From NCBI GenBank assembly GCA_963281255.1, contig OY725495.1, forward strand, positions 806,001-870,000: a stretch of DNA of 64,000 nucleotides, in the 5' to 3' direction. Origin of the DNA: Aphrocallistes beatrix (taxonomy: Eukaryota > Porifera > Hexactinellida > Sceptrulophora > Aphrocallistidae). Made by a program: the position numbers and the translations under genes. Shown here one piece after another: positions 22,015 through 54,439 of the stretch (position 1 is its first letter; each line of letters opens with the position of its first letter). The notes beneath the pieces are model-generated. The model saw only the letters and a program-made list of their open reading frames with translations. It was not told where the DNA came from and searched no databases.

Positions 22015-22520
22015 TCATGTGCGCTTACTTAAGTGAAATGCTATTTTTCGTTGAATTGCGGCTGTTTGTGTAGATTTTCGCCTATCCTTACATTTCTGAT
22101 ATTGCTAAATCATCATTATTCGGGCTCAAGGAAGCTGTGCATATTTTGAATGCTGATTTTTTCAGTTTTCAGATAAATCAGTACAAACAGTAAATTTGTC
22201 TAAGTTAATTAAAAAGTTGAAAACTTGACTGTCATTATCCAACTAGTATTTGTATACTAATCTATAAAATAATAGAATCTAGTCCTAGTAAAATATCTCA
22301 ACGAAACTTATCTAACATCCCTGGTATCGAGTGCCTTTTCTGCATGCTAATTTCAAACCCCGTAGAATAGCGCGCGTACGGACATACATACCTACATACA
22401 GACGTACGTAGAACGCCGTCCATGTCATAAGACAGAGCTTCCCAGCTCATGAGCCCATAGACCCACTAATATATCCTGTGTACAAAAGGGTGGGAACCAC
22501 TGATCTAATGCAATACTACT

Positions 22521-22549
22521 TTTCTTGTAGATTTTATTTTTGTTTTGTT
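22521..22549 (+). promoter_or_regulatory. Predicted 5' UTR splice acceptor before NHL-A
   Basis: Pyrimidine-rich TACTTTTCTTGTAG, 19 bases before the ATG, is conserved in all four NHL-A copies (34691-34700, 41619-41628, 46893-46902). It suggests an intron in the 5' UTR. The donor was not identified. Confidence 0.5.
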
Positions 22550-23797
22550 ATGGCCACAGTTCTGCCAATTCCTTCTGAAGAAGTGAGATTCGAGAACCAA
22601 GTCGCTAAAGTGAAGAGTGAAATTGAATCTCGTTTCCGTGAACTAATGAACTGTGTGAGAGAGAGGGAAAGAGAACTTTTGAACGAATTGGAAGATCTTC
22701 TAAATACTTACAAGAGAGAGAGAGATAAACACAAAAAATCTCTCTCAGAACTTGAAACGGGATTGAATTTTGCGAAAGAAAATCTCAACTCAAATGATCT
22801 CAAACAATTTCAAGATTCTATAATCAAACAAACGACAGAAAAACAGAAAGAATTTGAATCTCAGTTCCGATCGGAGCATATCAGTCTCTACTTTGACAAG
22901 AAAATATTGGAGATAGCTGGTACCATTGGACGACTTAATGTGACTAACTCCACTGCTGTAGTATCTAGCCTACCTGTAGTAGATTATATTGCAAAAGTGA
23001 CTCCTGTACGCAGTATAGGAGAAACATTTGGGTGTAAAGAAGGACATATCAATTATCCTTATGGAATAACAGTGCACTACCAGACTGGTAAAGTCTTTGT
23101 AGGAGATTATAATAACAACAGGATACAAGTATTTGATGAAGTTGGAAAGTATTTGTTCAAGTTTGGAGATAGAGATGGAGCTGGTAAGATGAAGAGACCT
23201 CATTATATTGCTGTATTCCAAGACAAAGTGTTTGTATCTCAAAGCGGAGTTAGTTGCTTGCTAGTTTACGATTTTAATGGAACATTTCTCGAACAGATAG
23301 GAACTCCAGGGAATGGAGAAGGACAGTTTAACAGACCACATGGCATTACTATCAATGAATTGAATGGAGATATATTTGTGTGTGATTCTTATAATAACCG
23401 AATCCAAATATTTTCAAAGGATTTACTATTTAAGTCTCAGTTTGGACATAAAATACTGAAGTGTCCTCGTGACATAAAACTAACTAACGAGTGTATTTAT
23501 GTACTCTGCTCCTCTAATCCATTCCTCTGTTCTTTCAACTATGATCTAACTCAGGTACAGAATTCTGTTTCCAATTCTTTTTCTAAACATCTGAACAATT
23601 CCTATTCATTTTGCATAGATGGTGCTGGTAACTTTATTATTGCAGATTATTCAGGAAGTTTTATTGTTCTATTCAATCAAGAAGGAGATTTAGTTCATAA
23701 AATTACTGATAGCTTACAAGGTCCATTTGGTATCTCAGTAGATGCAAGAGGGAGAATCATCGTTGTAGGTGACAACCAGCGTGTTCTGTTCTTTTAG
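22550..23797 (+). CDS. Coiled-coil/NHL repeat protein NHL-A, unit 1
   Basis: A 415-residue protein starting MATVLPIPSEEVRFENQV. Residues ~12-115 are a highly charged helical coiled coil (RERERELLNELEDLL). From ~150 to 415 there are six NHL-type blades, with strands such as YPYGITVHYQTGKVFVGDYN (169-188), RPHYIAV (216-222), RPHGITINELNGDIFVCD (262-279), CPRDIKL (305-311), NSYSFCIDGAGNFIIAD (350-366) and GPFGISVDARGRIIVV (391-406). The fold expected is a six-bladed propeller that binds protein or RNA. Coiled coil plus NHL is the C-terminal half of TRIM2/3/71-type proteins; RING and B-box are absent here. The upstream in-frame codons have no ATG, so 22550 is the start. AATAAA lies at 23802, giving a very short 3' UTR. 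Confidence 0.92.
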   Translation: MATVLPIPSEEVRFENQVAKVKSEIESRFRELMNCVRERERELLNELEDLLNTYKRERDKHKKSLSELETGLNFAKENLNSNDLKQFQDSIIKQTTEKQKEFESQFRSEHISLYFDKKILEIAGTIGRLNVTNSTAVVSSLPVVDYIAKVTPVRSIGETFGCKEGHINYPYGITVHYQTGKVFVGDYNNNRIQVFDEVGKYLFKFGDRDGAGKMKRPHYIAVFQDKVFVSQSGVSCLLVYDFNGTFLEQIGTPGNGEGQFNRPHGITINELNGDIFVCDSYNNRIQIFSKDLLFKSQFGHKILKCPRDIKLTNECIYVLCSSNPFLCSFNYDLTQVQNSVSNSFSKHLNNSYSFCIDGAGNFIIADYSGSFIVLFNQEGDLVHKITDSLQGPFGISVDARGRIIVVGDNQRVLFF

Positions 23798-24939: not shown

Positions 24940-27258
24940 ATGAATTTTGAAGATGATGGTAACATTGACTTCTCGATCAGCCAACAAGATTTGGAGGAAG
25001 CTCTGGACCCTGTGAGTACAGGTGTGAAAAAACTTAGAAAACAGACGAGAGAGCAGCGGATCTACGGAGTATGGACTAACAGCTCCGGTTCAGAAGAAGA
25101 GGCTAGCTTCTCGAGTGAGAGACATCACGGCAAGAGGAAGAAGGACTACTCTGCTCCTGTTTCATTCGTGAACTCGAATCTTGGTGGTGTGGACACGGGG
25201 AGGAATGTGAGCAGGAGAGAGAGGCGTGACTATCCGCGTGCCTCTACCTCCGCCAGATCCAATAGCAACATTGGAAGCTGGGAGAAGTATACGAAAGGCT
25301 TTGGTAGCAAGATGCTGCAGATGATGGGCTACAAAGAAGGGCAAGGGCTGGGACCAGATGGCAGCGGAATAGTGGAGCCGATCAAGGTGCAAGGGAAACA
25401 GAACCGAGTGTGTCTAGACTCTACTCAGCCACAACTCCCCCAACCAATGTTTCCAGAGAACTTGACTGAGGCAGAGAGTGTACTGGAGCAGCAGATACAG
25501 AAGAAGGACAGGTGGAAGAAGAACAGGTCTGAAGCAAGACTGGCAGACAGGAGTCGATTCAAGAGTGTGAATGAAGTGATGGAGTCTGCCAAGTATCCTC
25601 GTAAGCTGAGTAAGCCCAAGCCTCAGTCCTTTCTCTCCTCAGATCGTCCCGAAGTGAAGACCAAGGTGATCAACATGACAGGGCCCGAGTGCCAGGAGTT
25701 CGACAGCTTGGAAGAGTACGTGCAGAAGTCAGGTCGGAAGAGAGAGGTCGACTTCCTACCAGAGCTGGCGCAGAACGTGGACCTACTGGTGGAGAACACT
25801 GAGAGTAGCATCGTGAAGCTGAACAGACAGATGGAGTATGACAGCGACATGCTAGTGCAGCTGAAGCACGAACGGAGTGAGCTGGAGTTGAAGAGGTCTG
25901 CTTCAAGCAACAAACTCTCTCACATGAGCAAGCTGCTCCAAACCCTGGAGATGATAGAGCAGAGGTCTCTCTCTGGCATCATCGACTTAGAGATGTGCCA
26001 GCAATGGTTCAGAGACCTTTTGGCCGACTTCTCAGCGGAGTACACACAAATGCGGGTCTGCCTCCTCGCACGTCCGATCGTCTTCCCTCTCATTCAGAAG
26101 GAGATTTCGGACTGGGATCTGGTCCGTGACCCGACCGACGAAGCGGTCCAGTCCCTCTTCCAGACCTGGAGGGAGCTGCTGGAGGTAGAGCCGCTCCCAT
26201 CTCCGGGACAGACCGTGTACGAGCAACTCTTGCTCGAGGTCTGGTTACCCAAGTTCGCCTCTCACCTCAGTGCGCAATCTCTCCGCCAGCCGCTGCCACT
26301 TATCCAGCTGCTGGAGGCGTGGCGCGACCACTTCACACCTCTCATCTCATCCCAGATAGAGCTGCATCTCGTGGTCCCTGCCCTCAGGAGAGAGATCGGC
26401 TGCTGGGACCCTACACAGGACAGACAGCCACTGCACTACTGGGTGCACCCGTGGCTGTCCATCACGCGAGAGGGTCTGGAGTCTGTGTATCCGGACATCC
26501 GACGCAAACTGTCCGCTGCCCTCATGCAATGGCATCCCTCAGACCCTTCCGCCTACCACGTGATCAAACCATGGATGGGCGTATTCAGTCAGGGCGAGTT
26601 CGCGGCTTTCCTCGCGACTGCCATCCTACCGAAGCTCAGCGTAGCTCTGCAGCATCTGGTCGTAGACCCGAGCGACCAGAAACTAGAACCGTTCTCTGAC
26701 ACGATGCGGTGGAGAGACCTCCTCACCACTTCACACCTCTCCGACCTTCTCTGCCATCAGTTCTTCCCCAAGTGGCTGTGTGTCCTGGACTCCTGGCTCT
26801 CCTCCACGCCGGACTTCCACGAGGTATCTCGCTGGTATCTGGGCTGGAAAGAGAGGTTTGATTCTGAGTTGCTCAACTATCCTCCGATACAGCAGAACTT
26901 CCTACGAGCTCTAGACATGATGAACTCAGCCGTGAAATGGAATCCCAGCACTTGTCTCCGAGAAGACATATCTCGGTTCACAATAGAAGAGCGTCAGTCT
27001 TCGTTTCCTCACACCATCCAGCCACAAACGCGAACTCTCCATCCCACTCCCGAACTCTCATTCAGAGAGATGCTGCAGAAGTATGCGCAGAGAGATGACA
27101 TCGTATACATTCCTCTGAACAAGCAAGGTCCCAAGGGTAACTTCCTCTACAAGTTCGGGATATGCACCATCTTCATCGAGAAGAATGTTATATTCACTGC
27201 TAAGGACAATTCCTGGTTGCCGATTTCCATTGACGATCTCCTGGCCACTTGCAATTAA
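24940..27258 (+). CDS. TFIP11: TFIP11 / Ntr1-like spliceosome disassembly factor, unit 1
   Basis: A 772-residue homologue of tuftelin-interacting protein 11 (yeast Ntr1/Spp382), which recruits and activates the helicase DHX15/Prp43 to release the spliced-out lariat. Residues 1-105 match the TIP N-terminal domain (MNFEDDGNIDFSISQQDLEE, then YGVWTNSSGSEEE). A G-patch follows at about 118-163 (TKGFGSKMLQMMGYKEGQGL). Residues ~370-660 are rich in Trp and Leu and fit the GCFC domain (SDWDLVRDPTDEAVQSLFQT). The C-terminus ends PISIDDLLATCN. The vertebrate protein is somewhat longer (about 840). The ATG follows an AG acceptor by three bases, so an upstream noncoding exon is likely. AATAAA at 27280. 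The gene is much more GC-rich than its surroundings. Confidence 0.95.
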   Translation: MNFEDDGNIDFSISQQDLEEALDPVSTGVKKLRKQTREQRIYGVWTNSSGSEEEASFSSERHHGKRKKDYSAPVSFVNSNLGGVDTGRNVSRRERRDYPRASTSARSNSNIGSWEKYTKGFGSKMLQMMGYKEGQGLGPDGSGIVEPIKVQGKQNRVCLDSTQPQLPQPMFPENLTEAESVLEQQIQKKDRWKKNRSEARLADRSRFKSVNEVMESAKYPRKLSKPKPQSFLSSDRPEVKTKVINMTGPECQEFDSLEEYVQKSGRKREVDFLPELAQNVDLLVENTESSIVKLNRQMEYDSDMLVQLKHERSELELKRSASSNKLSHMSKLLQTLEMIEQRSLSGIIDLEMCQQWFRDLLADFSAEYTQMRVCLLARPIVFPLIQKEISDWDLVRDPTDEAVQSLFQTWRELLEVEPLPSPGQTVYEQLLLEVWLPKFASHLSAQSLRQPLPLIQLLEAWRDHFTPLISSQIELHLVVPALRREIGCWDPTQDRQPLHYWVHPWLSITREGLESVYPDIRRKLSAALMQWHPSDPSAYHVIKPWMGVFSQGEFAAFLATAILPKLSVALQHLVVDPSDQKLEPFSDTMRWRDLLTTSHLSDLLCHQFFPKWLCVLDSWLSSTPDFHEVSRWYLGWKERFDSELLNYPPIQQNFLRALDMMNSAVKWNPSTCLREDISRFTIEERQSSFPHTIQPQTRTLHPTPELSFREMLQKYAQRDDIVYIPLNKQGPKGNFLYKFGICTIFIEKNVIFTAKDNSWLPISIDDLLATCN

Positions 27259-27938: not shown

Positions 27939-29075
27939 ATGGAACTGGAGCACGAAACTGATTCCAATTACGAATCTGCTGAAGATGGATCTGAGTACTT
28001 TAGTGTGACAGATAATAGAGAGGAGACACAGTTCCAGCAATCCAATTGGGATGATGGTGAATTTGTTGATCATGATGATGAAAGTGAAATTAAGATTATT
28101 AACGATGGACACGATACAATGTTAATTTCAAGACGTTCCATTCGTATAATGGAGAATAGTGGGAAACAGAATCCATCTGTCAGTGTGTTGTGTTCTGAGG
28201 AGAAAAGGGAACTTACCCAAAAACCAGGAATTCACATTTTTCCAACAATTTCAAAAAAATCCTATCATACCTCATATAGCAGCATTAAAAACATTGGGAA
28301 ACAGTATCAGTGTACGACTTGTTCTAAATCATATTCTCATAGTTCATCTCACATTCGTACACATATTGGGAAGAAACCTCATGAATGCCATACTTGTTCT
28401 AAACTCTTTCTTACATCTTCAACTCTTAAAAGACACCTGATTACTCATACTTGTGAAAAGCCGTATAAATGCAATACTTGTCCGAAATCCTTTTCTCAAT
28501 CAGTACATCTGAAAGGACACATCCGTATTCATACTGGAGAGAAGCCGTTTAAGTGCATTACTTGTTCCAGATATTTTTTTCAATCCTCAGACCTTAAGAA
28601 ACACATTCGTACACATACTGGAAAGAAGCCTTATGAATGCTTTACTTGTTCTAAATCATTTTGTCTTCGCTCATATCTAAATATACACATTCGTACACAT
28701 ACTGGAGAGAAACCGTATCAATGTACTACTTGCTCCAAATCTTTTGTTTCATCTTCACCGCTTAATAGACACATTCGTGTTCATACTGGAGAGAAGCCGT
28801 TTAAATGCGTAACTTGTTCAAAAACTTTTTCGCAATCTTCACAGCTTAGTAGACACCGTCGTACTCATACTGGTGAGAAACCGTATAAATGCGTAACTTG
28901 TTTGAAATCTTTTTCTCAATCGACACATCTGAAAACACATATTCGTATTCATACTGGCGAGAAGCCGTATAAATGCTCTGTTTGTCCTAAATCCTTCTCC
29001 CAGCTCTCAAGAGTTAAGGAACATACTTTACGCATTCATAGGAAGAGACACGTGGAGAATACCGCCACTATTTAA
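27939..29075 (+). CDS. C2H2 zinc-finger protein, subfamily B, unit 1
   Basis: A 378-residue putative DNA-binding protein. The acidic module reads MELEHETDSNYESAEDGSEY then FSVTDNREETQFQQ and WDDGEFVDHDDESEI; a weak basic patch RRSIRIM follows at about 65-71. A ~50-residue linker precedes the fingers. Finger 1 (QYQCTTC, about 122) is three residues short between Cys and His. Eight canonical fingers follow with contacts TSTR, QVHG, QSDK, LSYI, SSPR, QSQR, QTHT and QSRE. The last finger has HTLRIH spacing. It differs from the unit 4 copy (52428) by residue 5, His versus Tyr. Intronless; leader GAAGAATTAAAAATGGAACT is shared with the other B genes. Confidence 0.93.
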   Translation: MELEHETDSNYESAEDGSEYFSVTDNREETQFQQSNWDDGEFVDHDDESEIKIINDGHDTMLISRRSIRIMENSGKQNPSVSVLCSEEKRELTQKPGIHIFPTISKKSYHTSYSSIKNIGKQYQCTTCSKSYSHSSSHIRTHIGKKPHECHTCSKLFLTSSTLKRHLITHTCEKPYKCNTCPKSFSQSVHLKGHIRIHTGEKPFKCITCSRYFFQSSDLKKHIRTHTGKKPYECFTCSKSFCLRSYLNIHIRTHTGEKPYQCTTCSKSFVSSSPLNRHIRVHTGEKPFKCVTCSKTFSQSSQLSRHRRTHTGEKPYKCVTCLKSFSQSTHLKTHIRIHTGEKPYKCSVCPKSFSQLSRVKEHTLRIHRKRHVENTATI

Positions 29076-30514
29076 ACATGTTGCAGTTCCCCGTATGTAT
29101 ACCAGTATCAGTTACCGTAGATAGTACAGCTAAATACTTTTAGGTTGTTATTTTTGTTAGTCAGATTAGCTAACAATCTAATCTAATATCTTTATCAAAC
29201 TAGTACATTTAATCATGTTTCTTTCCTTTGCGGCTAACATTATGTTTGCATCAGATCCCCCTCTGGCGTATATCATAATTCCACTACTAAATATACGGCT
29301 ATATACGTATGTTCCCGAAGAATGCCAGTTTTAACGCAGTTATACTATGATACATCAAATGCCGTACTTTTGAAGTGCATCACATTCTATTAAAATTTCA
29401 GCCTGGTGATAGAAAGCTGAAATATTAATAGATTGTATCTTTATATGTGGGGAATTACATTACAAAAAACCAATCATTTCACCACCATCAACCGATTGGT
29501 CTGAAATTTGCTGTGCGACAGGGCACTGATATGTCTTTACTTTTGTGAAAATTTCAGATCAATCGGTCATGTGGTTTTTGAGTTATAACGTCACAAATTT
29601 TTGAATTTTTGCTGTTTGACCAAGGATTTTCACAATGGGAAAATCACCATCCCATTTTAAACTCGAATAACTCGAAAAATATTCATCAAATTCTTTCATA
29701 AATTGCAATACTTATGTTTTTACATATGGAGAATACGAAAAACTTGAGTAAATTAAGTTTTGAGTTCCTTTTCTTTGTGAAAACTGGAACTGAAACCAAC
29801 TCCCGAAGCAAACCGGAACTATGACGTAACAAAACTGTATATTTTGGAAACTGTTTTATTTTTGGATATTTTACTGTTTATATTCATAATTCATTGTATA
29901 AAAAAGTTAATTTGGTTTCCATATGTTCTCTTTGAGTTATTCACATTTTTGTACCTGTAAACGCTTTCTATATACGTATAACTTAAAATTTTATGCCTTT
30001 TGTAAAAATATAAAATTGACCTGACAACTCTCAATTTCTGCAATTTTGAAAATGCTTTTATGTCTTCCTCTATAATATCACTCATTCTTACAACATTCTG
30101 CTATTGATATGTGCATTCGGAATTATAAGTCTGTTGTATATTTGACCGCAGACAGACTAAACATAAACAGTGCAATGCTGTTGTTGCTATGTAATAGGAA
30201 TGCGATAAATGTCAATAATGAGTTGAAAAGTTAATTTTAGAGGACTAATATTTGCTAAACAATCCGATATTTAGTCCGACCATAGCACTCTGTATATAAG
30301 GGCTTCCATCTAAATCTCAAAAATGGACCAGGGATGCGGTCGAAGATGGTTGATCAAATACATGATCTGCCAAAAATCATGAACAACGCAGAATAGAGCT
30401 TCGAAATGTATTACCAGCATCATAGCCTACTGTATATAAGGCCTCACAGTAACTTGCGGATTTGGGACTAGGGATGCGGAGGAAGACCGTTGAACTAATA
30501 CATGAGCTGCCTTA
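29076..30514. repeat. 3' flank and one arm of a large palindromic element, unit 1
   Basis: Colinear without indels with 53565-54439 up to the gap there (constant offset of 24489). From about 29441 onward it is the arm of a large palindrome whose inverted copy is at 55106-56180 (position pairs add to 85620). Its outer part includes the family-1 variant (30281-30421) and family-1 end (30422-30514), both reversed. The gap at 30515 removes whatever followed. Confidence 0.85.
29891..30085 (-). other. Small ORF inside palindromic element
   Basis: 64 codons with an ATG: MSDIIEEDIKAFSKLQKLRV, then basic and Tyr-rich sequence to NQINFFIQ. No recognisable domain. An identical ORF occurs in the inverted copy at 55535-55729, but since the whole DNA is identical this says nothing about selection. 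Probably chance, or the worn end of an element-encoded gene. Confidence 0.2.
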
Positions 30515-30714
30515 NNNNNNNNNNNNNNNNNNNNNNNNNNNNNNNNNNNNNNNNNNNNNNNNNNNNNNNNNNNNNNNNNNNNNNNNNNNNNNNNNNNNNN
30601 NNNNNNNNNNNNNNNNNNNNNNNNNNNNNNNNNNNNNNNNNNNNNNNNNNNNNNNNNNNNNNNNNNNNNNNNNNNNNNNNNNNNNNNNNNNNNNNNNNNN
30701 NNNNNNNNNNNNNN
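30515..30714. other. Assembly gap (200 N)
   Basis: Exactly 200 N, presumably a placeholder length. It falls at the end of the large palindromic arm. Confidence 0.98.
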
Positions 30715-31557
30715 TTCCTAAAACAAGTTGGAAGTTCCATATATTTATGTACAGTGTCTTAATCAGATATCTACAGTACAGATATGAGAAGCTTGCTTGA
30801 AGTATGACTCATTCCTAATACAAAAGAAATAGAGTAGTTTGATTATTTCTAGGCAGATATATCCACAAAAACAATGCTTAAAGTATGACTCATTCCTAAA
30901 AATAATTTTATTAAGTTAACATATTATAAATAGAAGGAGACTTTTATGTGTTACTTATATAATTACAAAAATCAACAATATTCTACATTCACTAGGCATC
31001 TCAAGACAATTCAAACAGTATAGTTCACTGTCTATCCTCTTGATAATCCTTAAAATTTCGTAGACAGTTGCGCATATCTGCACTACAATAATTGTGAAAA
31101 TTGCGTTCTACCATAATTCGAGAATAAGATTCTGTCAAAATTTGAGATTTGATAGAGGATATTATTATTCTATAATATAATATCACATAACATATTATTT
31201 TGCAACGTATATAATGAAAGTAATAAGACACAAATATTACTTTGAAACGTCCATCCAAGAGAGTTTGCTGGAAATTAGTAAGTAATGATTGGGTTAAAGT
31301 TTATGTGAGTATTTATTGATTTTAAATTGGCAAATTAGGCTTCAATCATCATCCCGAGTCTACACTCCTGATTATACGTATATAACTTCACTCTCACAAT
31401 AATAGTAGATTATTGTAAGACAAATTTTTGGCAAACATCAAAGTGTGTCTGTTAATGCTCATTTTAGAAATATCGAATCGAAAATTTTAGTACATACTAG
31501 AAACTGACATTACGTTCTAGTTATACTTTTTAGAGATATATCTTCTATTAGTGTCTT
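30715..31557. other. Intergenic
   Basis: AT-rich. GAAGTATGACTCATTCCTAA occurs near 30797 and, as AAAGTATGACTCATTCCTAA, near 30879. Nothing else recognised. Confidence 0.5.
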
Positions 31558-31758
31558 ATGTCGGAAAATGACTCTGTGGGAAATGTCGTAGCTGCAGTTG
31601 GTGTTGTGGGTGGTGCTGCAGGAGGGGCAGGAATTGGAGCAGTCGTGGGAGTGATAGGTGGACCAGTTGGCGTGGTGGCAGGTGGAGTTGTTGGTGGAGC
31701 TGTTGGTAGTGTAGTTGGTGGAGTTATTGCACTCATTGGATTACTTTCATGGAATTAA
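31558..31758 (+). CDS. Small glycine-zipper peptide, hypothetical
   Basis: 66 codons from an ATG: a short polar start (MSENDSVGN), then an almost pure Gly/Val/Ala stretch with many GxxxG and AxxxG spacings (GGAAGGAGIGAVVGVIGG, GGVVGGAVGSVVGG) and an end in IALIGLLSWN. This would make two tightly packed membrane helices with a Gly-Gly-Pro turn near residue 36. Glycine-zipper proteins insert in membranes, some as pores or channel subunits, but no family is identified. The unusual composition in AT-rich DNA supports a real coding stretch, or else the last exon of a longer gene: TTTTTAG lies 27 bases upstream. Confidence 0.4.
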   Translation: MSENDSVGNVVAAVGVVGGAAGGAGIGAVVGVIGGPVGVVAGGVVGGAVGSVVGGVIALIGLLSWN

Positions 31759-33009
31759 AAAAAGTAAATTTTTGATTGAATAATTTCTCTATAGCATGTT
31801 TAATTTTCCTTTCAACTTATGTACTAAATTACTAAGACTTTTTACTATGATTCTTTCCTCTAGTATAGTTCTATTGAACTTGTGTGCTTAATTATATTTT
31901 TTCTTATTATGTTATCTCTTCAAATGATGTATTACATCTCTTTTGTACGCTGAATCGTCCAAACCATGGTGCGATTAAATGTCTAATTTCTCCAATGAGT
32001 TTTCCTTTCTGCCATCTAAACTAATAGGAATTATATTGTGAGATTAATTCCTTTGCAAATGCAAATACCATTAATTTTAGCCTCAATGTGTGATAAACTT
32101 CAAACACAGTCTATTTCAAATGTATTGGCACTAAATTAATCAGCAAATCATTCGAAAGTTTTGTATAGACAGACAAACTAACTGATTAACTATTTTTTAT
32201 GTAAATGTATACATGTTTTACTCGGATAGACATTGAAAAAATAAATATTTCGAGGAAATTAGGTATAAAAGTTTCCCACTCGTTTGAAATTGCAGTTTCC
32301 AATTCAGTCAGACAAGAGAAATAAAATTTGATAGCCGTTGTTTGAGAACTCCCAAAAATGTTTCCGAAGGGATTTAGATCGGGTTAAAAACTTGGCCAAA
32401 GCATTACTTCGATATTTCTTCTCTCTTCCCAAGTCATGCTCAATTTCGAGGTGTGAATTAGAGTGCAAATATATTTATGTAGAATAGACATAACCGAAAC
32501 ATAAGCATGATATGGCAAGTAAATTCAATTTAGAAATTATAAAAAGTTAGAAAAGAATTTTTTTAGCGAAGTAGTATATTAAAGTTCAGTTAATTAGGAG
32601 ATGTAGGAAACCTTATTCTCCTAAATTTTCTTTTCTTTCTATTTAAATAACTCATTTTTAGTGCAGCACATAGTATAGGAGATGCCTTATGTCATGATCG
32701 ACGTCCGTACATACATAAGTAAGTCTGTATGCTCGCTCCTGGAAATTCTATTGGAATGGTGGAGTCAACTTAATATTTTAGTCTTCCTTTCTGAACACCA
32801 AAAACTTTATCGATTATTGCTCAGTTATTGATCCGTTGTCTATAATAATCATTATTATTGTCTTATGAAGCAGTGCGGATTTTTCTAAACTCTATTTGTG
32901 GAAGATACTTATACAGGGGATTTGAAAACTGTATTCCATATCCGGAGTTAAGCATTAACCATTTTTGTACTAACGAGAGTCTCCTGCAGGGTACGCAACA
33001 TTTGGTACA
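31759..33009. other. Intergenic
   Basis: AT-rich, no supported gene. A reversed family-4 fragment is at 32655-32770 (GCACATAGTATAGGAGATGC then GACGTCCGTACATACATA). Confidence 0.5.
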
Positions 33010-33230: not shown

Positions 33231-33420
33231 CTTGTTTGTATGTATTTCTTTGATATCAAACTTTGAGGAAGCTTAGTGGGAGTTCAGAAGTTGTCTCGAA
33301 AGACTAGTGCATTACTGGTATGCGAGGGGTGCTATGTAATTTGTCGTTCGGATATACGAAACCTAGAGTATAATTTAGTGTTGAATGCTAAGTTCTAAGA
33401 GTTAATACACAAAGTACAAA
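33223..33420. repeat. Dispersed repeat, second copy at 39040-39215
   Basis: TTTGTATGTATTTCTTTGAT, GAGGAAGCTTAGTGGGAGTT, AGTGTTGAATGCTAAGTT and the sequence between match 39052-39210. No coding capacity. In the second locus the repeat starts inside the 3' flank of NHL-B, at GTGCAACATTTGG. Confidence 0.8.
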
Positions 33421-43705: not shown

Positions 43706-43765
43706 ATGAATTTTGGAGATGATATAACATTGTCTTCTCTATCAACATACACCTCAATTCAAGTA
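43706..43765 (+). pseudogene. TFIP11 5' stub, unit 3
   Basis: GCAGCTAATGAATTTTGGAG then GATGATATAACATTGTCTTC: same stub as 36632, with a 4-base loss (TTGT) that shifts the frame after codon 6. No other part of TFIP11 follows. Confidence 0.8.
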
Positions 43766-43979
43766 ACTAGCCAAATGATGGTTTGACCATCATTTGCGAT
43801 TCAAAACCAGCTGACCAGCAAAGTGATTTAAAATATAAAGTTACCCCAGTTTTCCTCCTCCTTTATGATCCAATCGCCACCCAGACATCCCACAAATACG
43901 CCAGAATACCGAGTGAGTAGTCTAGTCTGAGTCAATTATTAATCCTTAAATAAGTCCCACTGTACTAGATGAGACTCAC

Positions 43980-44250
43980 TTGGTATTCCGGTGCATTTGT
44001 GTACCGTAGGTACTCCTCTCGACCACTCTAGATAGTGTCCTAGCACCTGCTACCACTTCGTACTGTCCGTCTGACTCCAGACACTCCTCATCCTGTGTCC
44101 CTCTCAGACTTGCATAGACATGCCTAGTCTATGCATTCCTGAGGATCTGGTATCCTAGCAACGCCTTTGTGTCCGTAGGCAGGAGTGCCACTTGGAGGGA
44201 TCTCGTGGGGTGACTGGTAGATTCCTTTGAGTGAAGTATTTGAATTCTGA
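43980..44250 (-). other. Possible exon remnant of an unidentified gene
   Basis: On the minus strand a protein-like sequence reads SLQVALLPTDTKALLGYQIL then RNA and a stop. It resumes one frame over as RHVYASLRGTQDEECLESDG and QYEVVAGARTLSRVVERSTY, ending NTK just before GTGAGT (a donor consensus at 43974-43979). GC content is higher than around it. I do not recognise the protein. Caution: the GTGAGT lies within an inverted repeat arm, so it may not be a real donor. Confidence 0.25.
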
Positions 44251-44597
44251 TCAAGGTGCTAGATCAGTTTCACAACACCCAAAAGGAATCCTCTTTCTAT
44301 CCTTCAATAGGGAAGTGAATGATACGAATTAACCAATCACTTTTCAGCGTTTAATTAAGCCGTCTCAAATGTCTGTGACGAACAAACCTCGTGAAACTAT
44401 TGGAATTCCTTATTTGTGATAGATCAGAAATTCTGAGAAGCTTGTAACTCCAAATTCTGAACAACAGAGTTTCCCTTTTAGTTTGAGACTAGTTACATGT
44501 GAGTTCCTCCTTTGCTCCATGTACGTATATGATAGCGTTCAAGAGCGTTTCGATCTGAATGGAATTAAGCATAACTGAAAGTCATTATGCAACCATT

Positions 44598-44709
44598 AAA
44601 ACCCTACTTGGACTTGGGGTACAAGGTATAAATTGAAAATTCCCACTTTCATTTTCACTTTCAATTAACTTTCACTTTCACTTCAACATTCCGAGTCCAA
44701 GTAGGGTTT
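44598..44709. mobile_element. ~110-bp MITE absent from the unit 2 paralogue
   Basis: AAACCCTACTTGGACT on the left and AGTCCAAGTAGGGTTT on the right form perfect 16-bp terminal inverted repeats, flanked by TTA. The interior repeats TTTCACTTTCA. The paralogous site at 37545-37565 reads through without it, so it inserted after the NHL-B duplication or was lost from unit 2. A 3-bp TTA/TAA duplication fits PIF/Harbinger-type elements. Confidence 0.85.
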
Positions 44710-44935
44710 AATCTGGATAGGACAAATACAATTAATCTTCCTTTCTAAAACTGAAACTTTACTCGCAAACAAAAAACAAGACACAACAACTTCCATGCTC
44801 ACATCCTCCTAACCACTTCACACTTTCACTTCCAATGCCACATCTCATTCCAATACTCATACAACCAGATATCATATAAATACATTCTCATCAACTTGTG
44901 TTCTATCTAACAAAACGACACAATTCTAACACGTA

Positions 44936-46101
44936 ATGGCGTCAAGATTCCAACAAATGAATCCAACCAACAATCCACTGGACAAATTTATAAAAGTGGA
45001 AGAAGAGATCCGAACGTACTTCGACACCATTATCAGTGTAGTGACCATCAGAAGAGATGAGCTGCTCCAGCAACTCAACGATCTGAAGCAGGACTACCTG
45101 AGCAAGGAGGATCTGAGGAAGAAACTTGTCCAGGGGTTGGAAAAGATTATCGGAGGGCTTGACGATATGAGTGTTCATCAAAATCCAAATTTGAAACTCC
45201 ACGAAGAAAATATCAACAGAACGAAAGAAGAACTGAAAAAGGCTGAACAACCAACTCCCGTCCCTGTCCCTCACTTCAGCTCAGATCTCCAATCTCTCCT
45301 GCAACAGCTGAAGAGGATAGGAACTGTTCATGAAATGAGAAGACTCTACTCTGACAAACTGGAACCTGTCAGGAGTATCATCGGGAAGAAAGGAGAGTTC
45401 AACTATCCTCATGGCGTCAGAATAGATGGAGAGAAGATCTATGTCTGTGATAGCAGCAACAGCAGAGTTCAAGTATTCTCTAACGACGGCAAATTCCTAA
45501 CAGAATTTGGTAAGGGACAGATAGATTTTCTTTATGACATAGCACTGTGTGATAAATGGGCGTTTGTAAGCGATATGATACAAAATACAGTTGCAAAATT
45601 CCAAATATCTAATTTTAAGTTAATTAATAAGAGTGTGAAGGAATGCTTAGTTACCCTAGAGGTCTAGCAGTGGATTGGAATGTTGTGTTAGTTGCAGATT
45701 ATTATAACCACAGAATAGCAGTTCTGAGTTTAGATTTACAATATTTAAGAGAGATGGGAAGAGGAAAGCTTAAATTTGCATGTGATGTAAAAACTTTTTC
45801 AAACAAAATATTTGTAGCTAATAAAAATAGCTCTCCTAATATCCATGTATTCTCAAAATCAGCTGATCTGTTGTACAGTATGACAAGTGTGAAAAGTGGA
45901 ACATTGGCAGATATGTTTCTGTGTTTAGATCAGTTTAGTAATATTCTAATTAGCAATGCAGAAGATAACTCAATACAAATATTTACGTCAGAAGGACAGT
46001 TAATACATTCCATTCAGTGTGGAGGATCTCCTATGGGAATAGCAGTGGCTAATAATAATACTATTGTGTGTACTATTGATAATTCAGTTAAATTCTATTA
46101 A
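44936..46101 (+). pseudogene. Coiled-coil/NHL protein NHL-B, unit 3, one frameshift
   Basis: Open for 243 codons: MASRFQQMNPTNNPLDKFIK, a coiled coil (about 15-115, with TIRRDELLQQLNDLKQDYL), a Pro-rich link (EQPTPVPVPHF) and the first NHL blades (NYPHGVRIDGEKIYVCDSSN; FLYDIALCDKWAFVSD). One base is missing near 45638 (AGTGTGAAGG versus AGTGTAGAAGG in unit 2), which leads to a stop in TLEV. The remaining 152 codons (SYPRGLAVDWNVVLVADYYN to VKFY) are open in another frame up to TAA 46099. The expected full protein would be about 388 residues. A sequencing error at one base is possible; otherwise the product lacks half the propeller. Confidence 0.8.
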
Positions 46102-46594
46102 CATTGATATGCAACTTTTTGTGTATTTCTTATATTTTTTTCTCAATTTGATATTGTCATTATTATTTGTGAGTGTCAATTAACGAACTATTTCATTTTT
46201 ATTTGCCACTTCTTTTCGCGAACATTCTTAGTCTGAAGATAATTTTAAATAATCGATTGCTAGCATTTGAATAATTCCCTATACTCACTCATATTATGTA
46301 TAAGTACTCCACGATTACAGTTCACAGCTGAGAACTCCTTACTAATACTAATATGTCGTCCTTGTTGGCTGATGGTCCATATAAGGAACACAAGAGCATA
46401 AGCTCGGGAGAGGATTGGTAAGACTTGGGACAGAACTAAGGATTGGAGGCCATTTCGTGAAACTAGTATTATGAGTAACAGAAGATAATACTTTTCTCAG
46501 TGGGACTTATTTGAGTAATAACTGAGCCAGACTATGCTCACTTGGTATCAGGGGCAGTCACACAGGAATTTTCCAAACCGGGGCGAGGCGGGGC
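46102..46594. other. Intergenic
   Basis: AT-rich, with ACTGAGCCAGACTATGCTCA and GTGGGACTTATTTGAG-type phrases (46500-46555) that resemble the inverted pair at 43900-43990. No gene. Confidence 0.45.
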
Positions 46595-46853
46595 AAATTT
46601 TTCATACTTGTACAATGATTTCTATTGTGATAGTATAGTCATTTATTTTGTATAGAAAAGGTGTGAAAAATTGTTTTCCATTTTTTTTGCAGAGATGTGA
46701 AAATTTCGCTTAGATCTTGGAACTTAATCGTAGTCATATCATTTGACACCTACATGCCAATTTTCACACCTCTATGACTTCCCAATTCTTCAATCAATTC
46801 GGACAAACACATAAAATAAATAAATAAAAATCCTAGCATTTTAATATATAAGA
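46595..46853. mobile_element. Family-2 MITE directly upstream of NHL-A unit 4
   Basis: Ends GTTTGTCC..., ...TTTTAATATATAAGA as in the 4302 element. CAATTCTTCAATCAATTCGG and GACACCTACATGCCAATTTT are family-2 arms. GGTGTGAAAAATTGTTTTCC links it to 17047-17240. Its right end abuts ACTCCTGAGAGGGAATACTG, the NHL-A leader, cutting off the CCAATATATCCTG sequence that precedes units 1-3. Confidence 0.85.
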
Positions 46854-46921
46854 TACTCCTGAGAGGGAATACTGATCTATTTCAATGCTTCATTTCTTGT
46901 AGATATTATTTTAGTTTTGTT

Positions 46922-48174
46922 ATGGCCACAGTTCTGCCAATTCCTTCTGAAGAAATGAGATTCGAGAACCAAGTCGCTAAAGTAAAGAGTGAAATTGAAT
47001 CTCGTTTCCGTGAACTAATGAACTGTGTGAGAGAGAGGGAAAGAGAACTTTTGAACGAATTGGAAGATCTTCTAAATACTTACAAGAGAGAGAGAGATAA
47101 ACACAAACAATCTCTCTCAGAACTTGAAACGGGATTGAATTTTGCGAAAGAAAATTTCAAATCAAATGATCTCAAACAATTTCAAGATTCTATAATCAAA
47201 CAAACGACAGAAAAACAGAAAGAATTTGTATCTCAGTTCCGATCGAAAAATATCAGTCTCGACTTTGACAGGAAAATATTGGAGTTAGCTGGTACCATTG
47301 GACGACTTAATGTTACTAACTCTACTGCTGTAGTATCTAGCCTACCTGTAGTAGATTATATTGGAAAAGTGACTCCTGTACTCAGTATAGGAGAAACACA
47401 AGGGAGTAAAGAAGGACAATTCAATTTTCCTTATGGAATAGCAATACACTACCAGACTGGTAAAGTCTTTGTAGGAGATCATAATAACAACAGGATACAA
47501 GTATTTGATGAAGATGGAAAGTATTTGTTCAAGTTTGGAGATAGAGATGGAGATGGAGATGGTAAGATGGAGTATCCTCATTATATTGCTGTATCCCAAA
47601 ACAAAGTGTTTGTAGCTCAATTCGGAGTTCATTGGTTGTTAGTTTACAATTTAAATGGAACATTTCTCGAACAGATAGGAACTCCAGGGAATGGAGAAGG
47701 ACAATTTAACGAACCACATGGCATTACTATCAATGAATCGAATGGAGATATATTTGTGTGTGACTCTTATAATAACCGTGTCCAGATATTTTCAAAAGAT
47801 TTACTATTCAAGTCTCAGTTTGGACATAAAATACTGAAGTATCCTTGTGTCATAAAACTAACTAACGAGTGTATTATGTACTGTGCTCCTCTAAGCCCTT
47901 CCTCTATTCTTTCAACTACGATCTAACTCAGGTACATAATTCTGTTTCCAATTCTATCTCCAAACATTTGAAGATGTCCTATTCATTTTGCATAGATGGT
48001 GCTGGTAACTTTATTATTGCAGATTATAAAGGAAGCTTTATTGTTCTATTCAATCAAGAAGGAGATTTAGTTCATAAAATTACTAATAGCATACAAGGTC
48101 CATTTGGTATCTCAGTAGATGCAAGAGGGAGAATCATCGTTGTAGGTGACAACCATCGTGTTCTGTTCTTCTAG
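46922..48174 (+). pseudogene. Coiled-coil/NHL protein NHL-A, unit 4, frameshifted
   Basis: Matches NHL-A of units 1-3 over its whole length. Open for 334 codons, then a one-base deletion near 47874 (GAGTGTATTATG; other copies GAGTGTATTTATG) at codon ~317 shifts the frame, and translation ends at 47926 inside blade 4. Blades 4-6 continue in the original frame from 47869 to TAG 48172. The loop after blade 1 has an extra GDGDG duplication. Upstream sequence beyond the leader has been replaced by a MITE. Probably inactive; a single-base sequencing error is the alternative. Confidence 0.85.
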
Positions 48175-48987
48175 TTTGAATAAGTATTAAAATGAGCTAG
48201 TTTATTCTCAAGGATGTTTTTGTCACAAATTTATACTATTACTGATTCTGTTATTATTTATTAATCTTTATGACATCAGTTTATTCCTGTCTATTTTTTC
48301 TGTGGATTATTATGATATATTAATTTCAGATTTTGTATTTTTTGCTGCTCTCATTATGGCAAATTTCTCATTGACATGGATGGTGTACGAAGTCCTTTTT
48401 CCATCCGTCTAGTCTTGTTGAGCTAGTTTCTGTAACTATTTTACCAAACTTATAGCAGAAATTTCTTATATGGTATAGATTTGTACCTGTTGTAACGATT
48501 ATTCATATTTCCACACCTCAATGCGTTAGATAATTCATAATTAACTGGAGTCCTAAAACCCTAAAACGAGAATCTTCACAATGCGTATCTCTCAAACCAC
48601 TTCATGGTGCTTCAATTTCGGTTTGTTGATCAACTTTTTTTGTAGCATGCCGGAATCAACGATAATATTTATTCCTCCACTCTGAACACCAAAACTTCAT
48701 TGATTATTGCTCAGTTATTTATCCCGTTATCCACAATATTAATCTTAATATCCATTGATTCCCGGTTTAAGCCATTTTGGGCGGGAAAGCCATAAAAATT
48801 CGGGGTATTTACTATAAATAGCAAAAACCTCATGCCATCCGGGGGATTATTAATAAAAGAATGTCAAGATATTTTGGCCATGTCTCATGATGGACTCAAT
48901 ACGGTTAGGATTATTTCAATAGATGATACAATACACCATTATTTTCTATTTTATACTCACCTAAATATCGTTCACTCTTAGCAGCTA
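48175..48987. other. Intergenic NHL-A to TFIP11, unit 4
   Basis: Family-4 repeat at 48340-48510. At 48750-48855 a repeat (CCCGGTTTAAGCCATTTTGG, GCGGGAAAGCC, TTTACTATAAATAG) is the reverse of the hAT-like one at 12345-12425. TACTCACC and TCTTAGCAG before the TFIP11 start mirror the branch point and acceptor of unit 1. Confidence 0.6.
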
Positions 48988-51312
48988 ATGAATTTTGAGG
49001 ATGATGGTAACATTGACTTCTCTATCAGCCAACAAGATTTGGAGGAAGCTCTGGACCCTGTGAGTACAGGTGTGAAAAAACTTAGAAAACAGACGAGAGA
49101 GCAGCGGATCTACGGAGTATGGGCTAACAGCTCCGGTTCAGAAGAAGAGGCTAGCTTCTCGAGTGAGAGACATCACGGCAAGAGGAAGAAGGACTACTCT
49201 GCTCCTGTCTCATTCGTGAACTCGAATATTGGTAGTGTGGACACGGGGAGGAATGTGAGCAGGAGAGAGAGGCGTGACTATCCGCGTGCATCTACCTCCA
49301 CCAGATCCAATAGCAACATTGGAAGCTGGGAGAAGTATACGAAAGGCTTTGGCAGCAAGATGCTCCAGATGATGGGCTACAAAGAAGGGCAGGGACTGGG
49401 ACCAGATGGCAGCGGAATAGTGGAGCCGATCAAGGTACAAGGGAAACAGAACAGAGTGTGTCTAGACTCTACTCAGCCACAACTCCCCCAACCAATGTTT
49501 CCAGAGAACGTAACTGAGACAGAGAGTGTACTGGAGCAGCAGATACAGAAGAAGGACAGGTGGAAGAAGAACAGGTCTGAAGCAAGACTGGCAGACAGGA
49601 GTCGATTCAAGAGTGTGAATGAAGTGATGGAGTCTGCCAAGTATCCTCGTAAGCTGAGTAAGCCCAAGCCTCAGTCCTTTCTCTCCTCAGATCGTCCCGA
49701 AGTGAAGACTAAGGTGATCAACATGACAGGGCCCGAGTGCCAGGAGTTCGACAGCTTGGAAGAGTACGTGCAGAAGTCAGGCCGGAAGAGAGAGGTCGAC
49801 TTCCTACCAGAGCTGGCGCAGAACGTGGACCTACTGGTGGAGAACACTGAGAGTAGCATCGTGAAGCTGAACAGACAGATGGAGTATGACAGTGACATGC
49901 TAGTGCAGCTGAAGCACGAACGGAGTGAACTGGAGTTGAAGAGGGCTGCTTCAAGCAACAAACTCTCTCACATGAGCAAGCTGCTCCAAACCCTGGAGAT
50001 GATAGAGCAGAGGTCTCTCTCTGGCATCATCGACTTAGAGATGTGCCAGCAATGGTTCAGAGACTTGTTGGCCGATTTCTCAGCGGAGTACACACAAATG
50101 CGGGTCTGCCTCCTCGCACGTCCGATCGTCTTCCCTCTCATTCAGAAGGAGATTTCGGACTGGGATCTGGTCCGTGACCCGACCGACGAAGCGGTCCAGT
50201 CCCTCTTTCAGACCTGGAGGGAGCTGCTGGAGGTAGAGCCACTCCCATCTCCGGGACAGACCGTGTACGAGCAACTCTTGCTCGAGGTCTGGTTACCCAA
50301 GTTCGCCTCTCACCTCAGTGCCCAATCTCTCCGCCAGCCGCTGCCACTTATCCAGCTGCTGGAGGCGTGGCGCGACCACTTCACACCTCTCATCTCATCC
50401 CAGATAGAGCTGCATCTCGTGGTCCCTGCCCTCAGGAGAGAGATCGGCTGTTGGGACCCTACACAGGACAGACAGCCACTGCACTACTGGGTGCACCCGT
50501 GGCTGTCCATCACACGACAGGGTCTGGAGTCTGTGTATCCGGACATCCGACGCAAACTGTCCGCTGCCCTCATGCAATGGCATCCCTCAGACCCTTCCGC
50601 CTACCACGTGATCAAACCATGGATGGGCGTGTTCAGTCAGGGCGAGTTCGCGGCTTTCCTCGCTACTGCCATCCTACCGAAGCTCAGCGTAGCGCTGCAG
50701 CATCTGGTCGTAGACCCGAGCGACCAGAAACTAGAACCGTTCTCTGACACGATGCGGTGGAGAGACCTCCTCACCACTTCGCAACTCTCCGACCTTCTCT
50801 GCCATCAGTTCTTCCCCAAGTGGCTGTGTGTCCTGGACTCCTGGCTCTCCTCCACGCCGGACTTCCACGAGGTATCTCGCTGGTATCTGGGCTGGAAAGA
50901 GAGGTTTGATTCTGAGTTGCTCAACTATCCTCCGATACAGCAGAACTTCCTACGAGCTCTAGACATGATGAACTCAGCCGTGAAATGGAATCCCAGCACT
51001 TGTCTCCGAGAAGACATATCTCGGTTCACAATAGAAGAGCGTCAGTCTTCGTTTCCTCACAGCATCCAGCCACAAACGCGAACTCTCCCTCTCCATCCCA
51101 CTCCAGAACTCTCGTTCAGAGAGATGCTGCAGAAGTATGCGCAGAGAGATGACATCGTATACATTCCTCTGAACAAGCAAGGTCCCAAGGGTAACTTCCT
51201 CTACAAGTTCGGGATATGCACCATCTTCATCGAGAAGAATGTTATATTCACTGCTAAGGACAATTCCTGGTTGCCTATTTCCATTGACGATCTCCTGGCC
51301 ACTTGCAATTAA
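48988..51312 (+). CDS. TFIP11: TFIP11 / Ntr1-like spliceosome disassembly factor, unit 4
   Basis: A 774-residue copy almost identical to the unit 1 gene (24940). Seen differences are about ten substitutions plus two extra residues near the C-terminus (RTLPLHPTPELS versus RTLHPTPELS). Domains are the same: TIP N-terminal part 1-105, G-patch ~118-163, GCFC-like region ~370-660. Substitutions fall mostly in the linkers (for example positions 46, 81-83 and 105) and none hits a Gly of the G-patch. Both copies are therefore likely functional. AATAAA at 51334. Splice acceptor TTAGCAG just before the ATG. As an essential general splicing factor, two intact copies plus fragments in one region is unusual. 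Confidence 0.95.
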   Translation: MNFEDDGNIDFSISQQDLEEALDPVSTGVKKLRKQTREQRIYGVWANSSGSEEEASFSSERHHGKRKKDYSAPVSFVNSNIGSVDTGRNVSRRERRDYPRASTSTRSNSNIGSWEKYTKGFGSKMLQMMGYKEGQGLGPDGSGIVEPIKVQGKQNRVCLDSTQPQLPQPMFPENVTETESVLEQQIQKKDRWKKNRSEARLADRSRFKSVNEVMESAKYPRKLSKPKPQSFLSSDRPEVKTKVINMTGPECQEFDSLEEYVQKSGRKREVDFLPELAQNVDLLVENTESSIVKLNRQMEYDSDMLVQLKHERSELELKRAASSNKLSHMSKLLQTLEMIEQRSLSGIIDLEMCQQWFRDLLADFSAEYTQMRVCLLARPIVFPLIQKEISDWDLVRDPTDEAVQSLFQTWRELLEVEPLPSPGQTVYEQLLLEVWLPKFASHLSAQSLRQPLPLIQLLEAWRDHFTPLISSQIELHLVVPALRREIGCWDPTQDRQPLHYWVHPWLSITRQGLESVYPDIRRKLSAALMQWHPSDPSAYHVIKPWMGVFSQGEFAAFLATAILPKLSVALQHLVVDPSDQKLEPFSDTMRWRDLLTTSQLSDLLCHQFFPKWLCVLDSWLSSTPDFHEVSRWYLGWKERFDSELLNYPPIQQNFLRALDMMNSAVKWNPSTCLREDISRFTIEERQSSFPHSIQPQTRTLPLHPTPELSFREMLQKYAQRDDIVYIPLNKQGPKGNFLYKFGICTIFIEKNVIFTAKDNSWLPISIDDLLATCN

Positions 51313-52427
51313 ATATATCAATGATGATACTTTAATAAATTGAATTAATCTCTTCTATTATTTATTTTGATTGGGAATTTCAATTTTATGTTCAAATTTT
51401 CCGAATTATATCGATACAATGCTGTCTAAGCAGGGCACTGTTGCATGAAAAAATGCCCCCCCCGTGAAAAAATGCCCCCACCATGGATATTCATGTAATA
51501 TGGGGGGGGACAAAATTTCATGGAGTTAGCGTGAAAAATTGCCCCCCCGTGAAAAAATGCCCCCACCATGGATATTCTTGAGTTTAACACTAAATATTGC
51601 TGATACTATTTATATACGATACATTTATGAAAGTCATTGTTATTACTTCACACGACTAGTTTGTTGATTTGCAATGCTTTAGTAAACGAATAGAAGCCAA
51701 ATAGCATTCAAAATGTTTTGTATAAGCATTGGCATACTTTAGAATATCCATGGTGGGGGGCATTTTTTCACGGGGGGGCAATTTTTCACGCTAACTCCAT
51801 GAAATTTTGCCCCCCCCCCCATATTACATGAATATCCATGGTGGGGGCATTTTTCCATGCAACAGCACTACACACCATAGACTACTTTATATACAAGTAC
51901 TACAGACTGCAGTTCAAGTAGATAACTATTCAATATTGTGCGAATTTTATTAGGATGGCGTCATGATGAGTCAGCAAAAATCAGGATAGAGTGACTCAGT
52001 AACATAACCCTTCGCATGTTTATTCAAGTTGGAAGCACACTCCCGTTAGTGAGGTTTATCTGTCTTATCAGAAATATTTTCTATAATTATTTTCCCAAAA
52101 ATAAAAATGTGACTTATGGCAAGTAAAAAATAAAGGCGAGTAGACCGTGATATTAACGGATTTCTTATTCAGAACTGATTGTGATATAAATGAGAAAAAA
52201 ATTAGAAAAAACCCATAACATAACCGTCAGGGGATTTTGTAATTCACTGATAAGCGCAGAAACGCTGGAACCGTATCGAAACTAATTTAGGTTCCATGGT
52301 ACTGTGTTCTTTATATTTTACCTTTTGTAAATGTAAAGTATATATTTATTCAAAATTAGTATTTAATTCATTAAAGATTCCTTAAAAACTACTTACTCAG
52401 TAGCGTGTAAAATCAGAAGAATTAAAA
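51313..52427. other. Intergenic TFIP11 to zinc-finger-B, unit 4
   Basis: Homologous to 27259-27938 with many small indels, and interrupted by the foldback at 51440-51864. Poly(A) signal at 51334. Confidence 0.6.
51440..51864. mobile_element. 425-bp foldback element with C-rich arms
   Basis: GTTGCATGAAAAAATGCCCC on the left pairs with a complementary GGGGGCATTTTTCCATGCAAC on the right. Each arm (~140 bp) contains CCATGGATATTC, a GGGGGGG run, CATGGAGTTAGCGTGAAAAA and GTGAAAAAATGCCCCCACC twice. The loop (51580-51727) is AT-rich. Flanks carry GCACT on both sides (51435-51439, 51865-51869). The unit 1 paralogue reads across the site without it. Confidence 0.9.
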
Positions 52428-53564
52428 ATGGAACTGGAGTACGAAACTGATTCCAATTACGAATCTGCTGAAGATGGATCTGAGTACTTTAGTGTGACAG
52501 ATAATAGAGAGGAGACACAGTTCCAGCAATCCAATTGGGATGATGGTGAATTTGTTGATCATGATGATGAAAGTGAAATTAAGATTATTAACGATGGACA
52601 CGATACAATGTTAATTTCAAGACGTTCCATTCGTATAATGGAGAATAGTGGGAAACAGAATCCATCTGTCAGTGTGTTGTGTTCTGAGGAGAAAAGGGAA
52701 CTTACCCAAAAACCAGGAATTCACATTTTTCCAACAATTTCAAAAAAATCCTATCATACCTCATATAGCAGCATTAAAAACATTGGGAAACAGTATCAGT
52801 GTACGACTTGTTCTAAATCATATTCTCATAGTTCATCTCACATTCGTACACATATTGGGAAGAAACCTCATGAATGCCATACTTGTTCTAAACTCTTTCT
52901 TACATCTTCAACTCTTAAAAGACACCTGATTACTCATACTTGTGAAAAGCCGTATAAATGCAATACTTGTCCGAAATCCTTTTCTCAATCAGTACATCTG
53001 AAAGGACACATCCGTATTCATACTGGAGAGAAGCCGTTTAAGTGCATTACTTGTTCCAGATATTTTTTTCAATCCTCAGACCTTAAGAAACACATTCGTA
53101 CACATACTGGAAAGAAGCCTTATGAATGCTTTACTTGTTCTAAATCATTTTGTCTTCGCTCATATCTAAATATACACATTCGTACACATACTGGAGAGAA
53201 ACCGTATCAATGTACTACTTGCTCCAAATCTTTTGTTTCATCTTCACCGCTTAATAGACACATTCGTGTTCATACTGGAGAGAAGCCGTTTAAATGCGTA
53301 ACTTGTTCAAAAACTTTTTCGCAATCTTCACAGCTTAGTAGACACCGTCGTACTCATACTGGTGAGAAACCGTATAAATGCGTAACTTGTTTGAAATCTT
53401 TTTCTCAATCGACACATCTGAAAACACATATTCGTATTCATACTGGCGAGAAGCCGTATAAATGCTCTGTTTGTCCTAAATCCTTCTCCCAGCTCTCAAG
53501 AGTTAAGGAACATACTTTACGCATTCATAGGAAGAGACACGTGGAGAATACCGCCACTATTTAA
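52428..53564 (+). CDS. C2H2 zinc-finger protein, subfamily B, unit 4
   Basis: A 378-residue protein identical to the unit 1 gene (27939) but for residue 5 (Tyr for His). Acidic module 1-50, weak basic patch 65-71, one short finger and eight canonical fingers with the same contacts. DNA identity continues without indels through the 3' flank to the gap at 54440, yet ends abruptly ~20 bases before the ATG: upstream (TACTTACTCAGTAGCG) the copies differ. Such a sharp border is what gene conversion would leave. Intact frame. Confidence 0.93.
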   Translation: MELEYETDSNYESAEDGSEYFSVTDNREETQFQQSNWDDGEFVDHDDESEIKIINDGHDTMLISRRSIRIMENSGKQNPSVSVLCSEEKRELTQKPGIHIFPTISKKSYHTSYSSIKNIGKQYQCTTCSKSYSHSSSHIRTHIGKKPHECHTCSKLFLTSSTLKRHLITHTCEKPYKCNTCPKSFSQSVHLKGHIRIHTGEKPFKCITCSRYFFQSSDLKKHIRTHTGKKPYECFTCSKSFCLRSYLNIHIRTHTGEKPYQCTTCSKSFVSSSPLNRHIRVHTGEKPFKCVTCSKTFSQSSQLSRHRRTHTGEKPYKCVTCLKSFSQSTHLKTHIRIHTGEKPYKCSVCPKSFSQLSRVKEHTLRIHRKRHVENTATI

Positions 53565-54439
53565 ACATGTTGCAGTTCCCCGTATGTATACCAGTATCAG
53601 TTACCGTAGATAGTACAGCTAAATACTTTTAGGTTGTTATTTTTGTTAGTCAGATTAGCTAACAATCTAATCTAATATCTTTATCAAACTAGTACATTTA
53701 ATCATGTTTCTTTCCTTTGCGGCTAACATTATGTTTGCATCAGATCCCCCTCTGGCGTATATCATAATTCCACTACTAAATATACGGCTATATACGTATG
53801 TTCCCGAAGAATGCCAGTTTTAACGCAGTTATACTATGATACATCAAATGCCGTACTTTTGAAGTGCATCACATTCTATTAAAATTTCAGCCTGGTGATA
53901 GAAAGCTGAAATATTAATAGATTGTATCTTTATATGTGGGGAATTACATTACAAAAAACCAATCATTTCACCACCATCAACCGATTGGTCTGAAATTTGC
54001 TGTGCGACAGGGCACTGATATGTCTTTACTTTTGTGAAAATTTCAGATCAATCGGTCATGTGGTTTTTGAGTTATAACGTCACAAATTTTTGAATTTTTG
54101 CTGTTTGACCAAGGATTTTCACAATGGGAAAATCACCATCCCATTTTAAACTCGAATAACTCGAAAAATATTCATCAAATTCTTTCATAAATTGCAATAC
54201 TTATGTTTTTACATATGGAGAATACGAAAAACTTGAGTAAATTAAGTTTTGAGTTCCTTTTCTTTGTGAAAACTGGAACTGAAACCAACTCCCGAAGCAA
54301 ACCGGAACTATGACGTAACAAAACTGTATATTTTGGAAACTGTTTTATTTTTGGATATTTTACTGTTTATATTCATAATTCATTGTATAAAAAAGTTAAT
54401 TTGGTTTCCATATGTTCTCTTTGAGTTATTCACATTTTT
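53565..54439. repeat. 3' flank and left arm of large palindrome, unit 4
   Basis: Colinear with 29076-29950. From about 53930 it is complementary to 55670-56180 (right arm). Confidence 0.85.

Follow-up and report, generated by a model that had tools for sequence, protein, structure and literature searches.

One hallmark that PMC9516828 lists for false duplications is a gap separating the members of a duplicated pair on the same scaffold. At the locus analyzed here this hallmark, one of four, was found; the other three are read-based, and the assembly sequence alone was used in this study. Further points of likeness to the false heterotype duplications described there are copies that have diverged and lie, separated by gaps, on the same scaffold, and a second copy of a gene, TFIP11, that has no other full copy; the versions at the present locus differ also by a local tandem duplication. 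Foldback transposons, such as Galileo (PMC4168063) and Tm1 (PMC3169594), are resembled by a family in the window in its long near-identical inverted arms, several copies and short centre, but the window copy differs in that no target-site duplication of 6 bp or more was found for it. TFIP11/Ntr1 is described as a spliceosome disassembly factor. The window copies share its order of TIP_N, G-patch and GCFC domains, as found by domain search, and phmmer gave TFIP11 an E-value of 5.4e-116 against the PDB chain for tuftelin-interacting protein 11 (8ro2, 8ro0); that chain has 837 aa and window copy 1 is an uninterrupted frame of 772 aa. The NHL-A genes carry NHL repeats in their open frames (domain search) and resemble the TRIM-NHL proteins (TRIM2/3/71, Thin, Brat) in this part, over which NHL-A2 matched Thin with an E-value of 1.4e-44 and TRIM71 with 1.8e-41. 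They differ from class VII TRIM proteins in that no RING finger or B-box match was found in the open frames of NHL-A1, A2, A3 and A4, and TRIM and PML coiled-coil models match them weakly, below their cut-offs. The word "NHL" is absent from the available text of the glass-sponge genome papers PMC10282587 and PMC10280926.

The window, which is the whole stretch of 64,000 nucleotides that was analyzed, corresponds to C9:806001-870000 of a genome of 100.5 Mb in 28 scaffolds. Its TFIP11, NHL and C2H2 genes suggest an animal source. An earlier note on this DNA had described an amplified array of four units in the order full, stub, stub, full (1-2-2-1). The following features were located.

21158..21310 and 21425..21741, + strand: TFIP11 relic in two pieces that correspond to codons 144-196 and 604-707 in copy 1
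22550..23797, + strand: NHL-A1, intact, 415 aa, NHL repeats (reading frames, domain search)
24940..27258, + strand: TFIP11 copy 1, single open frame of 772 aa with TIP_N, G-patch and GCFC (reading frame, domain search)
27939..29075, + strand: C2H2 zinc-finger gene B, copy 1
29440..30514, + strand: foldback transposon at the end of the left contig: left arm of about 981 bp, with 94 bp of the inner part
30515..30714, no strand: assembly gap of 200 N (self-comparison of the window)
30715..54439, + strand: isolated contig of 23,725 bp that carries units 2 to 4; probably the second haplotype (haplotig)
34720..35967, + strand: NHL-A2, intact, 415 aa (reading frames, domain search)
36527..36671, + strand: unit 2 stub of the TFIP11 start (ATG at 36632), with about 13 codons and the 105 bp upstream of them
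37786..39024, + strand: NHL-B1, frameshifted
41647..42885, + strand: NHL-A3, intact, 412 aa (reading frames, domain search)
43449..43744, + strand: unit 3 stub of the TFIP11 start (ATG at 43706), as in unit 2 but with a break of about 130 bp of other sequence
44936..46175, + strand: NHL-B2, frameshifted near 45650
46922..48174, + strand: NHL-A4, frameshifted, frame of 334 aa versus about 415 (reading frames)
48988..51312, + strand: TFIP11 copy 4, single open frame of 774 aa (reading frame)
52428..53564, + strand: zinc-finger gene B, copy 4, which starting at 52441 is identical to copy 1
52441..54439, + strand: 1,999 bp identical to 27952-29950, to the last base of the contig, 511 bp into the transposon arm
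54440..54639, no strand: assembly gap of 200 N (self-comparison of the window)
54640..56181, - strand: foldback transposon at the start of the right contig: inner part and right arm

The copies on which the array had been built are present. Self-comparison of the window, proposed as a check in the earlier note, recovered them: reading frames placed four NHL-A genes at 22550, 34720, 41647 and 46922, the full TFIP11 genes at 24940 and 48988 and the stub ATGs at 36632 and 43706, and two NHL-B genes (37786, 44936) and two zinc-finger-B genes (27939, 52428) were found as named. What did not hold was a single assembled array. The left contig contains the TFIP11 relic, NHL-A1, TFIP11 and zinc-finger-B and ends in the transposon arm, whereas the short contig contains, in this order, NHL-A2, stub, NHL-B1, NHL-A3, stub, NHL-B2, NHL-A4, TFIP11 and zinc-finger-B. 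Units 2, 3 and 4 are joined by continuous sequence, and unit 1 is separated from unit 2 by the gap at 30515-30714. The 1-2-2-1 order is thus a product of scaffolding, not of assembled sequence, and the locus illustrates clearly that a short contig isolated between gaps can be mistaken for a gene array. A gap of 200 N is usual for some Hi-C scaffolders. The earlier note mentioned neither the gaps nor the frameshifts in NHL-A4 and NHL-B.

Units 1 and 4 are probably two haplotypes of one NHL-A/TFIP11/zinc-finger locus, the second of which would carry a tandemly duplicated stub unit, with the look of an array arising from scaffolding. This reading, drawn from sequence comparisons, is favoured by the position of the two gaps, the sole ones in the 264 kb fetched around the locus, both of which flank the 23.7-kb contig. 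It is favoured as well by an alignment, scored in bins of 200 bp, in which units 1 and 4 were compared from NHL-A as far as the end of the contig. Likeness was 89-96% within the coding sequence of NHL-A, 45-80% in the intergenic stretch that follows, 95.5-99.5% across TFIP11 and 88-95% from there to the zinc-finger gene; the bins just before the last difference, at 27951/52440, showed 5-12% divergence in aligned columns, and from there the 1,999 bp to the contig end are identical. Such an identical overlap at a contig end can be a trace of parallel assembly-graph paths. In the self-comparison, the zinc-finger-B blocks were 96.2% identical over 2,599 columns and the full TFIP11 copies 97.0% over 2,574 columns. 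At the protein level the identity of TFIP11 copy 4 to copy 1 is 98.7%, both frames are intact, and dN/dS is about 0.10, which indicates that TFIP11 is under constraint.

Near-equal synonymous divergence of the two genes also favours two haplotypes: dS is 0.059 ± 0.011 for the TFIP11 pair and 0.0625 ± 0.019 for NHL-A1/A4 (293 codons before the frameshift). The similar values would fit joint divergence of NHL-A and TFIP11, as a single block, between units 1 and 4, given wide errors. For NHL-A2/A3 the dS is 0.055 ± 0.015, and the remaining NHL-A pairs range from 0.054 to 0.099. Of the 25 sites that divide the four NHL-A genes into two pairs, 15 unite 1 with 4 and 2 with 3, the remaining two splits having 5 each, and this pairing is another point in favour. 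The phylogeny suggested in the earlier note agreed in grouping A2 with A3 (bootstrap 91) and did not place the root. A genome search with TFIP11 gave 8 matches, namely the 2 full copies, 2 relic pieces in the window and 4 weak matches to other frames; none of them was a third full TFIP11, which again fits two alleles of one gene.

The left contig ends in the foldback transposon, and the right contig opens with the same repeat, inverted. The two halves differ at 10 of 1,076 columns, 9 of which lie in the outer 35, and outside the tips the arm bodies are 99.9% alike over 1,041 columns. For the left arm at least 44 matches were found in the genome (40 of 2,281 candidates scored), the best outside the window at 96%; at least 39 of them lie outside the window and measure 0.84 kb or more, these being arms and hence fewer elements. 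The half on the right contig has its best match outside the window at 97%, among the matches listed, and the window halves are 94.9-96.3% identical to three other elements. Left and right halves are thus closer to each other than to other listed copies, which favours the two-haplotype reading, and the two contigs appear to hold two halves of one insertion, with the centre missing between them. The last 511 bp of the short contig belong to the same left arm and are identical to the left contig; the short contig seems to have been scaffolded into that transposon. In the 264 kb, counting matches over 200 bp, there are two left arms, one of them cut by the contig end, and a single right arm, another point in favour of two haplotypes. 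A palindromic transposon can in this way mark the place where two contigs probably join. Elements of the family are about 2.7 kb long with arms of 1.0-1.2 kb; an intact copy (L045, C3:4046374-4049258) has a 235-bp centre between arms of 1.2 kb, whose likeness is 99.35% over 1,227 columns.

Haplotype one would accordingly run from the left into the right contig as NHL-A1, TFIP11, zinc-finger-B and foldback transposon. Haplotype two, on the 23.7-kb contig, would comprise NHL-A4, TFIP11, zinc-finger-B and the same transposon insertion, with the duplicated NHL-A/TFIP11-stub/NHL-B unit ahead of the NHL-A4 block. The assembly would have broken inside the palindromic transposon, and the scaffolder would then have put the alternative-haplotype contig inside it. 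With units 1 and 4 on different contigs, one of them apparently inside a transposon, the duplication of a full unit proposed in the earlier note is doubtful; the arrangement fits two haplotypes better. On the two-haplotype reading the locus is most likely largely ordinary, with tandem copy-number variation of a very large NHL family beside a splicing gene without another full copy.

Several observations weigh against two haplotypes. The two ends of the window copy showed no target-site duplication of at least 6 bp, and the arm tips differ; a further element of the family (L046) has a self-inverted identity of 93%, and near-identical arms are thus not universal in it. A dS of 0.06 would mean high heterozygosity. 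The sequence upstream of NHL-A1 does not match that upstream of NHL-A4 except for short dispersed repeats, and the matches listed for 30715-34600 elsewhere in the genome are no longer than about 0.5 kb, so the haplotypes would also need a large insertion difference. A 3-kb piece of the unplaced scaffold C24 gave no clean haplotig match and a piece of C22 matched itself alone; the C24 piece being unlike a simple haplotig, a haplotype retained elsewhere in the assembly is without an example. Separately, the short unplaced scaffold C22 holds at 12001-13868 (L048) a long frame that by eye is DNA-polymerase-like, with no match elsewhere in the genome among the matches listed; it may be a contaminant, or else an element of virus-like or Polinton-like kind.

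If the four units truly formed an array on a single chromosome, a full unit would have been duplicated to either side of the stub units, and recent gene conversion or unequal crossing-over would have equalized the zinc-finger/transposon end. The contigs are adjacent in scaffold order, NHL-A relatives do form large clusters, such as that on C12 at 3.83-4.27 Mb, and the two intact, constrained TFIP11 frames (dN/dS as above) would be in keeping with such an array. Yet no sequence joins unit 1 to unit 2, the start of the middle contig has no match to the transposon arm, and such an array needs a second right arm, of which none was seen in the 264 kb; it is considered unlikely. If it did exist, a constrained splicing gene would be hitch-hiking on the amplification of a fast-growing NHL family, with two intact TFIP11 copies, start-region stubs and a 3' end kept identical by recent conversion, a picture that we regard as doubtful. 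That the middle contig stems from a genuine paralogous locus elsewhere in the genome and was mis-scaffolded here is very improbable. Its shortness and its isolation by gaps would suit a misplaced paralog, but the identity of its last 1,999 bp to this locus is hard to reconcile with an unlinked old paralog, and the genome search found no other full TFIP11.

Units 2 and 3 represent the sole well-supported tandem duplication. The separate duplication of the stub unit that the earlier note had suggested is borne out by their location on one contig, by a common junction and by the A2+A3 grouping. The NHL-B regions share three matching blocks of 91.6-97.5% identity in the self-comparison. Both stubs continue into one common short sequence and then diverge, and the stub junction therefore probably arose once. 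One TFIP11/NHL-B junction, formed once and then copied, accounts for both stubs, and the several deletions that had been invoked to join TFIP11 to NHL-B are not needed; the junction may have arisen through a deletion or as a duplication edge, either being compatible. The closest relatives of NHL-B among the matches listed are on C14 (85%) and C1 (80%), which gives no sign that NHL-B is an old neighbour of TFIP11. The 3' flank of NHL-A was rejected as the source of the stubs, since none of five other NHL-A loci (L004, L006, L008, L016, L033) matches the stub region, which argues for their derivation from the TFIP11 start. A chimeric stub gene was likewise rejected, as its frame would stay open for 89 codons in unit 2 but for no more than 26 in unit 3. 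The frameshifted genes NHL-A4, NHL-B1 and NHL-B2 are all on the short contig, which makes low-depth sequence error possible, as is decay.

The TFIP11 fragment that the earlier note had placed near 21161 exists, but no unit was recognised there, and the hint of a fifth unit was not sustained. The relic shares 3 sites with copy 1 and 5 with copy 4 and takes no clear side.

The four NHL-A copies are 86-92% identical in pairs over 1.7-2.0 kb (blastn). NHL-A1 matched the three others with 2,129-2,282 bits, against a maximum of 33.7 bits (20/20) for a Markov-1 control of 20 resampled sequences of one unit (22451-24222). NHL-A is a member of a very large family in this genome, with at least 102 matches (100 of 2,117 candidates scored). 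In the C12 cluster, four copies of equal score are spaced by exactly 3,380 bp (starts C12:4253726, 4257106, 4260486 and 4263866), and a fifth, starting at 4250346, has the same spacing and a different score.

The C2H2 zinc-finger genes at 5423-14275, 27939, 52428 and 60930 have a common acidic N-terminus (GSEYFSVTD) outside the fingers and form a local family around the locus. Near-palindromic stretches of about 390-470 bp, 78-87% self-inverted, were observed at 19640-20062, 33765-34232 and 51465-51857, the last lying within extra sequence between TFIP11 and zinc-finger-B of unit 4 that is absent from unit 1.
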